From positions 1-49,918 of the forward strand of contig ONIQ01000021.1 of NCBI GenBank assembly GCA_900317925.1: a DNA stretch of 49,918 bases. The letters are read 5' to 3'. This DNA is from an uncultured Bacteroidales bacterium. GTDB lineage: Bacteria > Bacteroidota > Bacteroidia > Bacteroidales > UBA932. This document shows, piece after piece, positions 43,412 to 47,094 of this stretch; within the stretch, counting starts at the first letter, position 1; the number at the start of each line of letters is the position of its first letter. Both the position numbers and the translations under genes were made by a program. Below the pieces are notes generated by a model. The model saw nothing but the letters and a program-made list of their open reading frames with translations. It was not told where the DNA came from and ran no database searches.

Positions 43412-46239
43412 GGCTTCAAATATTCTGCTGTAAAGGTGTTTCCCCTGGCCACCAGTTCCTCCGGCGTCCCCGCAAAGACCAGTTCCCCACCCCGGTCACC
43501 CGCATCCGGGCCCAAGTCTAGGATCCAGTCGGCATTGCGGATCACATCCAGGTTATGCTCTACCACCACGACGGTATGGCCCTTCGCCAGCAGCACGTCA
43601 AAGGCCTTCAGCAGTTTCTCCACGTCGTAGAAATGCAGGCCTGTGGTGGGTTCATCGAACAGGAAGAGAATGTTTCCGCGACGGGAACCTTCCTCCCCGC
43701 TCATTGCCAGGAAATAAGCCAGTTTGATACGCTGGCTTTCGCCACCGGAAAGGGTACTGCTGCTCTGTCCCAGTTTGATATAGGAAAGTCCCACATCCAC
43801 CAGCGGTTGCAGGCGGGCAGCCACTTCGCGGGCCGCCGCCTCCTCCTGCGAGCCAAAGAAGGCGATCGCCTCTTCTACGCTCATATCCAGGATATCGTCG
43901 ATGTTCTTTCCCTTGTATCGGACCTCCAGGATGTCACTTTTGAACCGCTTTCCCCCACAGGCCTCGCAGACCATGGTCACATCGGCCATGAACTGCATGC
44001 CGATGTGCACGACGCCCTCTCCCTGGCATTCCGGGCAGCGCCCGCCATCCTGGTTGAACGAGAAAAACGAGGGGGTATAGCCGTTCATGCGCGCATAGGG
44101 CTGGTCGGAGAGCAACTTGCGGATGCTGTCATACACCTTCAAGTAGGTGACGGCATTGGAACGCGAACTCTTGCCGATGGGACTTTGATCTACGTATTCC
44201 ACCCGGCGGATGCGGTCCAGGTTACCGGAAAGCTTGCGGAACACGCCGGGCACATCGCCGGTTTCTTCCAGCTTGCGCCGGAGGGCCGGATAGAGGATAT
44301 CCCCCACCAGGGACGATTTCCCGCTGCCGCTCACGCCGCTTACCACCGTCAGCACCCCCAGGGGGAACTGAACGTCGATATCCTTGAGGTTGTGCTCCAT
44401 GGCACCTTCTATCTTGATGGCATAGTTCCACCCGCGACGCTGGCGGACAAAACGCGGCCGTGCACCCGTAAGATATTGCAGGGTAAGGGATTCCTTCAAC
44501 TCCGGAACGCCTTTCTGCAGGTTTCCGCGGAAGACCACCCGTCCCCCTTCGGAACCCGCTTTCGGTCCCATGTCGATCAGCAGGTCGGCCGCCCGCATCA
44601 TCTCCTCGTCGTGTTCCACCACCACCACGGTGTTGCCGATATCGCGCAGCCGCCGGAGCACTTCGATCAGGCGGGCGGTGTCCCGCGGATGCAGGCCGAT
44701 GCTGGGTTCGTCCAGGATATAGAGCGATCCCACCAGGGAACTTCCCAAGGCCGTCACCAGACTGATCCGCTGGCTTTCCCCGCCGGAAAGCGTGTTGCAA
44801 GGCCGGCTGAGGGTCAGGTACGACAGGCCCACATCGCGGATATACTGCAATCGGGAAACCACCTCTTCGATGGCCTTCCCCGCAATGGTCCGCTCGGCAT
44901 CGGTCAGCGACACCGAAGAGAAAAATGCCAGCAGTTCATCCACGTTCATATCCAGCAATTCTCCCAGGTTCCGTCCGCCCACCTTGACGTACAGGGCCTC
45001 CGCGCGCAGACGTGTCCCGTGACAGGCATGGCAGGTGGTCCGGCCGGAGAACCGGCTCAACATATATTTGTACTGGATTTTGTATCGGTTCGACTCCACC
45101 CACTCGAAAAACTCGGCAATCCCGACCAGGGAGTCATCATCCCCGGGCACGCTGTGGGCGTTCCAGATGGTATCGCGCTCCTGCTGCGTAAGGTTGCAGT
45201 AAGGTTCGAACGGGCGGATGCCATATTTCGGTGCCAGCCGGATCATGTGGTCGCGGAACCAGCTCATCTTCTCTCCCCGCCAGCAGGCGATGGCGCCGTC
45301 GTACAGGCTCTTGGATTTATCGGGCACCACCAGATCTTCGCTCACGCCGATGATCTTTCCCAAGCCGCCGCACACCGGGCAGGCTCCCAGGGGGCTGTTG
45401 AAGCTGAAGAGGTATTCATCGGGCTGTTTGAAGGCCATCCCGTCCATTTCCATGCGGTTCACGAAGGTAGATCGATCCGTCTCCCCTTCCCGCTGGACAT
45501 AGACTTTCCCGTTTCCGCGGGAATAGGCATCGGCCACGGAGGCTAGCACGCGGGCGCGCAAATCGTCCCATTCCTGGCCTTCCCGCACCTCGGGGACGCG
45601 GACGCGGTCGATCAGCAGGCAGACCCCCGCCGGATAGTCTCCCGTTTCGGCACGCTGCATCACTTCCTCGATGCGAAGCGGACCGGACGGTCCCATCAGA
45701 CGGGTATAGCCCTCCTCTTTCAAGGAGAGCATGAGTTCCACCTTGTCGGTCCGGTTGTCCCAGTCCAGGTCGGCCAGCAGGTAGGCCGTTCCGACGGGAG
45801 CCGCAGGCCCCAGCAGGCAGTCCACCACGTCCGAGAGGGTGTTGCATCGCACCTCCCGGCCACTTACCGGCGAATAGGTCCGGCCGATGCGGGCGAAGAT
45901 AATGCGCAGATAATCATATATTTCCGTCGTAGTTGCAACGGTCGAGCGCGGATTGCGCACGTTCACTTTCTGTTCGATGGCGATGGCCGGCGGGATTCCC
46001 TCGATGGACTCCACATCGGGTTTGGTCATCCGTCCGAGGAACTGGCGCGCATACGAAGAAAGGCTCTCCGCGAACCGGCGCTGCCCCTCGGCGAAAAGGG
46101 TATCAAAGGCCAGCGAGGATTTTCCCGATCCGGAGATGCCGGTGATTACCACCAGCTTCCCGCGGGGAATCTCCACGGTTATGTCTTTCAGGTTGTTTAC
46201 TTTCGCACCCCGGATCACAATATTGCCTTCAGTATCCAT
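43399..46239 (-). CDS. uvrA: Excinuclease ABC subunit A
   Basis: This 946-residue damage-recognition ATPase of nucleotide excision repair has two ABC ATPase modules. The first Walker A is '[20 protein letters not shown]' and the second '[17 protein letters not shown]'. Signatures '[12 protein letters not shown]' and '[12 protein letters not shown]' and two Walker B segments ('[14 protein letters not shown]', '[15 protein letters not shown]') follow. Zinc fingers are '[10 protein letters not shown]', '[10 protein letters not shown]' and '[10 protein letters not shown]...CEACGGKRF'. ATG 46239 is chosen because a promoter -7 box covers the upstream TTG. Confidence 0.96.
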
Positions 46240-46257: not shown

Positions 46258-46288
46258 CAAAGATAAGGATTTTTAGCCGAATACCAAG
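46258..46288 (-). promoter_or_regulatory. uvrA promoter
   Basis: On the minus strand CTTG (46288-46285), a 19-bp spacer and TATCTTTG (46265-46258) give a near-perfect Bacteroidota promoter, with about 12 nt of leader to ATG 46239. Confidence 0.7.
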
Positions 46289-46313
46289 GCTCAGCCATTT
46301 TGACCCAAAAAGC

Positions 46314-46366
46314 GACAATTTGTCATAAATCATTGACTATTTGACAGTTACAGGTGACATTTTGTC
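46314..46366 (+). promoter_or_regulatory. Three phased activator-site candidates upstream of hsp20
   Basis: GACAATTTGTC (46314-46324), GACTATTTGAC (46335-46345) and GACATTTTGTC (46356-46366) are 11-bp sites whose centres are exactly 21 bp apart (two helical turns). The outer two are inverted repeats. They lie about 57-99 bp upstream of the predicted sigma-54 start, the place of enhancer-binding-protein sites. Confidence 0.65.
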
Positions 46367-46392
46367 GCCATTCCACCCCGTTATCGGCAAGC

Positions 46393-46406
46393 GGCACAGC
46401 CCTTGC
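46393..46406 (+). promoter_or_regulatory. Sigma-54 (RpoN)-type promoter of hsp20
   Basis: GGCACAGCCCTTGC has the invariant GG and GC separated by 10 bp, as in the -24/-12 consensus TGGCAC-N5-TTGC (here preceded by C, with GGCAC and TTGC intact). The start would be near 46418. A palindrome TCCGGAATTCCGGA (46424-46437) follows in the leader. Confidence 0.6.
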
Positions 46407-46502
46407 CATATCCTAAAGTGTCCTCCGGAATTCCGGAAGACCCGAAAGAGGCCGGCAGCCCTCACGTTAGAAGTATAATTAATTAATATAGGAGATTTGA
46501 TT

Positions 46503-46931
46503 ATGGTACCTACATGCAGAAACAACCAGTCTTGGTTACCCGATGTGTTCAACGATTTGTTCGACCGCAACTGGATGGAACGTGCCTCCGCCACCGCTCC
46601 GGCCATCAATGTGATGGAGAATGAAAACGGTTACGAACTGGAGCTGGCCGCTCCGGGCATGACCAAAGAAGACTTCAAGGTACGCCTCAACGACAACGGC
46701 GACCTGGTCATCGACATGGAGCACAAGACCAACAAGGAAGAGAAGAAAGACGGCCGCTACCTGCGCCGCGAGTTCCACTATGGCAAATTCGAGCAGACCA
46801 TGCTGCTGCCGGACGATGCCGAACGGGAGCAGATCAGCGCCAAGGTCGAAAACGGCATCCTGACCGTCGAGATTCCCAAGGTGAAGAAAGTTCACGTAGA
46901 TGAGGAGAAAAAATTCATCGAAGTGAAATAA
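46503..46931 (+). CDS. Small heat-shock protein, Hsp20 family
   Basis: This 142-residue ATP-independent chaperone has an alpha-crystallin domain (about residues 32-135) with 'NGYELELAAPGMTKEDFKV', the region 'EEKKDGRYLRREFHYGKFEQ' and the hallmark 'AKVENGILTVEIPKV'. The N-terminal arm is short. It binds unfolding proteins during heat or oxidative stress. ATG 46503 is used with AGGAGA at 46490-46495; the TTG at 46497 is a weaker start. It sits alone behind a long leader (about 85 nt) and a sigma-54-like promoter. Confidence 0.92.
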   Translation: MVPTCRNNQSWLPDVFNDLFDRNWMERASATAPAINVMENENGYELELAAPGMTKEDFKVRLNDNGDLVIDMEHKTNKEEKKDGRYLRREFHYGKFEQTMLLPDDAEREQISAKVENGILTVEIPKVKKVHVDEEKKFIEVK

Positions 46932-47013: not shown

Positions 47014-47088
47014 GGTGCGGTAGTTCAGTTTGGTTAGAATACCGGCCTGTCACGCCGGGGGTCGCGAGTTCGAGCCTCGTCCGCACCG
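47014..47088 (+). tRNA. tRNA-Asp (anticodon GTC)
   Basis: Full cloverleaf: acceptor GGTGCGG/CCGCACC, D arm GTTC...GAAT, anticodon stem CCGGC/GCCGG with loop CTGTCAC (anticodon GTC), T arm GCGAG-TTCGAGC-CTCGT, discriminator G. CCA is not encoded. Confidence 0.95.
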
Positions 47089-47094
47089 CTTAAG

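Follow-up and report, generated by a model that had tools for sequence, protein, structure and literature searches.

The hsp20 gene studied here, from an uncultured Bacteroidales bacterium, is probably transcribed from a sigma-54 promoter that belongs to a class-wide chaperone regulon of the heat-shock type, with EBP2, an enhancer-binding protein (EBP), as the likely activator at GACAnnnTGTC sites. The promoter lies in a stretch of 49,918 nucleotides, referred to below as the window, and the same arrangement is found upstream of many chaperone genes in the class Bacteroidia. How chaperone genes are switched in this class, which is a major one in gut and aquatic settings, is poorly known. The sigma factor was proposed earlier; the present analysis contributes a site at which an activator probably binds, a rule of geometry that governs where this site may stand, and one conserved candidate regulator.

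The hsp20 promoter and its array of palindromic sites

The features of the hsp20 region, in window coordinates and with offsets counted from the predicted transcription start, are the following.

46258-46265, minus strand: TATCTTTG, sigma-A type -7 box of a divergent uvrA-like gene, outside the hsp20 promoter
46294-46304, plus strand: GCCATTTTGAC, putative fourth and weaker activator-site copy, centre at -119, 98 bp above the promoter element
46314-46324, plus strand: GACAATTTGTC, putative activator site, centre at 46319 (-99), 78 bp above the promoter element
46335-46345, plus strand: GACTATTTGAC, putative activator site, centre at 46340 (-78), 57 bp above the promoter element
46356-46366, plus strand: GACATTTTGTC, putative activator site, centre at 46361 (-57), 36 bp above the promoter element
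46392-46406, plus strand: CGGCACAGCCCTTGC (CGGCAC-AGCCC-TTGC), sigma-54 -24/-12 element, conserved before hsp20 in relatives
46418, plus strand: predicted transcription start, placed from the element, 12 bases past the -12 C
46420-46441, plus strand: 5' leader hairpin, an RNA fold that begins where the hsp20 mRNA is predicted to start
46503-46931, plus strand: hsp20 coding sequence, 142 aa (PF00011, E 2.7e-22)

A first-pass annotation of this DNA had described three sites exactly 21 bp apart, a GG-N10-GC promoter below them, and a palindromic leader. All three are present: the site centres stand at the 21-bp intervals, GG falls at 46393-46394 and GC at 46405-46406, and the leader palindrome is TCCGGAATTCCGGA at 46424-46437. 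The GCCATTTTGAC copy was not part of that description; it lies 20 bp farther up than GACAATTTGTC, giving spacings of 20, 21, and 21 bp for the four sites. The element of this genome starts with CGG rather than TGG. The sites have the character of a UAS, being palindromic, situated above the promoter, and conserved in relatives. The UAS of EBPs usually lie at about -80 to -200, and EBP sites as near as -45 are unusual. The hsp20 site centres run from -57 to -119, and the nearest site stands at -45 in many relatives.

The Hsp20 protein of the window is 61-69% identical to those of four or more relatives in its genus and family. The closest named record is the Bacteroidia MAG RUG14513 (L373), with an Hsp20 that is 98% identical, and the next ones include Candidatus Cryptobacteroides. 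L373 retains four such sites and the promoter, with a different spacer leading from the last site to the promoter. The divergent uvrA-like gene is on the minus strand with an ATG near 46239, both name and start being putative and taken from reading the sequence. A tRNA-Asp (gtc) gene lies just 3' of hsp20, at 47014-47089.

Two other modes of control were considered for hsp20 and rejected. The exact sigma-A type box TAnnTTTG is absent from the hsp20 strand between 46235 and 46510, where a single one-mismatch match occurs at 46492, which speaks against a sigma-A promoter. CIRCE control was rejected likewise, with no CIRCE-like sequence within five mismatches at hsp20 or groES; the contrast that the first-pass annotation drew with the HrcA scheme stands to that extent. 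That annotation had also named absence of rpoN as evidence against a sigma-54 reading. One rpoN, intact and with AID, CBD, and DBD domains, is encoded in the genome, which is 95% complete and spans 2.18 Mb in 75 contigs.

It is very improbable that hsp20 is transcribed by sigma-A or an ECF factor and that the GG-N10-GC match and the palindromes serve some other purpose. Chance alone yields many such strings: allowing one mismatch, TGGCACN5TTGC shows no enrichment in the genome (146 matches vs 176 for the control). Relatives, moreover, mostly carry A as the -12 base. Against this stand the missing exact TAnnTTTG box, mapped sigma-54 (SM4) starts published for the same kinds of genes (PMC9723704, as far as the available part of that paper goes), and the presence of the element far above shuffles, the G, G, and G of GG-N10-G being fixed by selection in the 133 scored elements described below. 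The GG-N10-GC element, the intact rpoN, the missing box, the conservation, and the published promoters at chaperone genes of the phylum together support the sigma-54 reading.

Could the array be an accident of an AT-rich intergenic stretch that holds similar 11-mers? Single sites are indeed not enriched genome-wide: single 11-mers at up to one mismatch gave 53 and 65 matches vs 55 and 48 for the control. The exact pair GACNNTTTGNC-N10-GACNNTTTGNC, by contrast, occurs in the 2.18-Mb genome only at hsp20, as the two overlapping pairs of the triple, and the next-best places carry two mismatches. Only the exact array stands out, because pairs at up to three mismatches (13 forward and 14 reverse) are not above the reversed control (26 and 24). 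A triple at 21-bp spacing whose sites match 6 or more of the 8 palindrome letters was found once in the window and in none of 200 shuffled windows. Strict tandem pairs, GACANNNTGTC-N9..11-GACANNNTGTC, gave no match in 395 genomes of the phylum, the own genome included; the search was too strict, since the middle window site is GACTATTTGAC. The conservation, the phasing, and the gene content of an unbiased search, all given below, also speak against an accident, which comparative data already contradict and which is scarcely credible.

The perfect sites listed for the genome number 10. Two are at hsp20 and five others were inspected: the ones before groES and a Clp-like gene are suitably spaced from a promoter, and two fall inside coding frames. 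The fifth, a perfect GACATTTTGTC (L010, G000:C14:3874-3884), lies about 100 bp before the start of a gene that we take to be secA-like, with no sigma-54 element seen at the usual distance. The genome also has a second hsp20 on contig C74 (L247, G000:C74:2000-3900), with a three-site array at -173, -153, and -131 from the ATG and a similar element at -106.

Conservation and helical phasing across the order

The first-pass annotation suggested looking for the site upstream of hsp20 in other genomes. For this comparison, 155 Bacteroidales hsp20 loci were taken from a larger set of matches, and 150 remained after five without a usable upstream region were dropped. An element was counted at a score of at least 16.5 of 18.5 and a site at a minimum of 6 of 8 palindrome letters. 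The element was found in 133 of the 150 upstream regions, vs fewer than 10 of 150 in shuffles, and was absent in 17. Among the 133 element-bearing promoters, 125 have sites and eight have none. After TTG these elements have A in 71% of cases and C in 17%, a departure from the GC that is canonical in other phyla.

The 330 GACAnnnTGTC sites in the 125 promoters are periodic, with a best period of 10.5 bp (8-14 bp scanned) and R 0.62, vs R 0.16 for the 77 sites of the reversed motif in the same order-wide set. Peaks stand at 24, 34/35, 45, 55/56, 65/66, 76/77, 86/87, and 97 bp above TGG. Taking only the nearest site, one per promoter, gives R 0.73 (n=125), and R 0.62 (n=84) once the 24-bp peak is left out. 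The p-values for phasing are not to be taken literally because the sequences are related; the evidence is the periodic peaks. In-phase sites, noted first for the window alone, are thus strongly supported and extend to the whole order. The window's own offsets (36, 57, 78, and 98) are about one to two bases off the mean phase.

A set of named near relatives, partly overlapping the order-wide set, behaves in the same way. It was fetched separately as 80 loci, from which two were removed because their upstream regions could not be used. The element is present in all 78 usable loci (5 expected), and the 78 promoters hold 255 sites with a best period of 10.4 and R 0.78; the reversed motif gave 50 sites and R 0.16. 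The phase of 2.9 agrees with that of 2.8 in the order-wide set.

The leader hairpin has a narrower distribution. Within the family, 76 of 78 leaders of relatives fold, 92% at -6 kcal/mol or below (mean z -1.1), and the first paired base lies at +1 to +4 in 71 of them; the sequences differ. Order-wide, only 20% of 111 leaders reach -6 kcal/mol. As a guess, the hairpin may stabilize the transcript.

A probable chaperone regulon and its candidate activator

A composite of site and element was searched for regardless of the downstream gene, as the exact pattern GACANNNTGTC-N12..14-TGGNAY-N5-TTG, with the reversed pattern as control. In 393 Bacteroidales genomes it gave 76 matches, in 65 of the genomes, vs three for the reversed pattern, and 61 of the 76 precede chaperone or protease genes. 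The downstream genes are HtpG (34), GroES/L (7), DnaK (6), Hsp20 (6), ClpB (4), Clp-like ATPase (2), and Lon (2); the remainder are thioredoxin (2), baeRF family 3 (2), ferritin (1), and others (7), with no ORF found in three cases. Gene labels came from short sequence patterns; for every named class except GroEL, one or more examples were confirmed with Pfam.

Across 395 genomes of the phylum, the composite is present in 39, including the own genome. Other orders of the class Bacteroidia have it in 35 of 92 genomes (reversed control 1), vs three of 297 outside the class, which is chance level (reversed control 4), so that the motif seems to be a trait of Bacteroidia as a class. The five other genomes of the order in this sample all lack it. 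The phylum search gave 41 matches, and the downstream gene was read for 31, i.e., 30 loci and the own groES; the 30 loci comprise HtpG (20), DnaK (8), the own Clp-like gene (1), and one without an ORF. The own genome has composites before groES-groEL on contig C46 and before a Clp-like ATPase gene on contig C37.

In a set of 104 composites, for which the search pattern itself fixes the distance from site to TGG at 23-25 bp, 70 have A as the base that follows TTG. No phasing was seen for the 45 extra sites above 80 non-hsp20 composites (R 0.19), a count that excludes six hsp20 loci and 18 near-identical ones (L270-L287), so the arrays look specific to hsp20. The other regulon genes have mostly one site.

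Outside the chaperone set, composites precede baeRF family 3 genes (release-factor-like, PF18845) at L208 and L221, which are possible new members of the stress regulon. Others precede a ferritin gene, a gene for a YfdX-domain lipoprotein, and two thioredoxin genes (L216, L218, L164, and L206). Proteins without a Pfam match lie behind composites at L231, L232, and L233, in genomes of one genus.

The genome encodes EBPs: PF00158 gives eight matches, two strong ones and six weak AAA matches. The strong match on contig C51 (L001 1093-2244, G000:C51) is a protein of 383 aa with an NtrC-type receiver and an AAA+ domain and no HTH_8, and may therefore activate without a DNA site. The other, EBP2, on contig C37, has 420 aa and the domains of a bEBP, AAA+ (PF00158) and HTH_8 (PF02954), with no sensor domain and about 126 residues between the AAA+ lid and HTH_8. 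Its HTH_8 is the only one in the genome. Judged by sequence, EBP2 is the likely reader of the sites and the best candidate for that role.

EBP2 is nearly universal in the order: at a threshold of E<=1e-80, 187 of 198 genomes have a match, one per genome. Among the matches listed, homologues are about 50-65% identical and mostly nearly full length. The SERTLYRK stretch of the recognition helix is the same in 10 proteins compared and in all those tails, 19 among 20, in which that part is visible. None of the NCBIfam equivalog models among the 25 matches listed for EBP2 reaches its cut-off; the pspF model scores 256.5 bits vs a cut-off of 443.55, which leaves EBP2 outside PspF. HTH_8 occurs exactly once in 19 of the 65 composite-bearing genomes, and in seven of these 19 (G000, G009, G081, G095, G126, G142, and G192) coordinates identify the sole copy as EBP2.

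The first-pass annotation proposed looking for a linked NtrC-type regulator. Such linkage fails at hsp20, the window being on contig C31 and EBP2 on C37, and holds for other chaperone genes. In the own genome, EBP2 is followed by lptE (PF04390), one further ORF, and the Clp-like gene with its composite. The Clp-like gene follows EBP2 in all three genomes of the window's genus that were examined (G000, G008, and G627), with a strict composite before it in two. Forty EBP2 neighbourhoods were hand-picked from the matches listed, including two that end at contig ends (L475 and L482); in 20 of them EBP2 is followed, at a distance of up to about 2.9 kb, by the start of groES or groEL. A groES start was found in nine of these 20, and seven of the nine have the element 65-78 bp before the ATG, with a site at offset 45 in four and at 34 in one, a count that lends weak support. 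No site within one mismatch was found on the EBP2 strand in its own locus, as autoregulation might show.

The fit between sites and protein is imperfect. EBP2 was not found at 1e-80 in G056, G099, and G141, which have phased sites, nor HTH_8 in G054 and G767, which have composites; G190 has neither sites nor EBP2 at 1e-80. The genomes with sites or composites may be incomplete, but G099 is given as 98%. These cases, together with the several HTH_8 proteins of many genomes, allow another account, in which the promoter is of the sigma-54 type and the sites bind a different factor. This could be a response regulator resembling RprY, a repressor, or some other EBP; EBP2 would then act elsewhere, on other genes, or would not need the sites. 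In its favor, the available part of a study in Porphyromonas gingivalis reports RprY as a repressor that binds the groES, clpB, and dnaK promoters and not that of htpG (PMC3646045). Yet htpG, unbound by RprY, is the commonest target of the composite (34 of 76), the window genome has one HTH_8 protein, EBP2 is linked to chaperone genes, and the sites share the helical phase of the sigma-54 element, which is what an activator in contact with it should show. A different factor at the sites is accordingly considered unlikely, and EBP2 is retained as the candidate activator in what follows.

Proposed mechanism and comparison with known systems

Sigma-54 RNA polymerase would bind at 46392-46406 and initiate near 46418. 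A dimeric activator of the Fis type (HTH_8), likely EBP2, would bind the GACAnnnTGTC palindromes, whose members presumably face the polymerase because they are placed in 10.5-bp steps. EBP2 dimers could then assemble on this side of the DNA and open the sigma-54 complex; cooperative binding by an EBP oligomer, as proposed in the first-pass annotation, is plausible from the spacing. With sites this close and phased, EBP2 could reach sigma-54 with little looping of the DNA, and its long linker may allow action from sites as near as -45. Protein stress presumably switches EBP2 on, and since EBP2 has no sensor domain, the signal probably arrives through its amount or a partner protein. Compared with htpG, dnaK, or groES, each preceded by a single site, hsp20 is perhaps controlled more steeply through its array.

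Because many chaperone genes of the class share this layout, a single master activator of their stress response is likely. In its fullest form, the proposal is that EBP2 controls the protein-quality-control regulon of Bacteroidia, reading GACAnnnTGTC at whole helical turns above sigma-54 promoters, acting face to face from close phased sites in a class-I-like manner, and filling the role that sigma-32 or HrcA has in other bacteria. We give this version even weight for and against.

Sigma-54 control of Bacteroidota chaperones is published (PMC9723704 and PMC12316311, both seen in part), and the novelty that the first-pass annotation implied for heat-shock control by RpoN in this phylum is reduced to that extent. 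In Flavobacterium psychrophilum, SM4 -24/-12 promoters with mapped starts were reported at groESL, lon, dnaK, grpE-dnaJ, htpG, and clpB, and an EBP-lptE operon (tags 0733-0732) with its own alternative-sigma (SM5) promoter lies near groES-groEL (0729-0728), according to the available part of the paper (PMC9723704). Both the promoters at chaperone genes and the EBP-lptE pair near groES-groEL resemble the situation here. The SM4 account differs in that its available part describes no activator site or phasing, does not have hsp20 in its table, and mentions three EBP-domain proteins with none assigned (PMC9723704). A 2025 survey of sigma-54 regulons likewise found a chaperone set that includes IbpA/Hsp20 enriched for sigma-54 promoters in Bacteroidota, using a promoter-matrix approach and, in the part available, neither an activator site nor an activator (PMC12316311). 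RprY is similar in that it acts, in one species of the phylum, at the promoters of groES, clpB, and dnaK; it differs as a repressor without htpG binding, and the available text gives no site motif (PMC3646045). Words beginning with Bacteroid- or Flavobacter- do not occur in the available part of a further paper (PMC3162934). Literature searches, with thin coverage of subscription journals, returned no paper with the site, the phasing, or an assigned activator, and an earlier report is possible.

Two better-known systems offer closer parallels in form. PspF is an AAA+ and HTH activator without an N-terminal sensor domain that serves sigma-54 promoters of the phage-shock stress response. EBP2 shares this architecture and a predicted role at sigma-54 stress promoters, and differs in the genes served, in the long linker before its HTH, and in scoring below the pspF cut-off. 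In class I activation by CRP-like proteins, sites lie close to the promoter and have to stay on the same helical face, at intervals of 10.5 bp; the likeness is one of geometry only, as the protein family and the sigma factor differ. Phased sites so near a sigma-54 promoter would widen the picture of how EBPs reach the polymerase.
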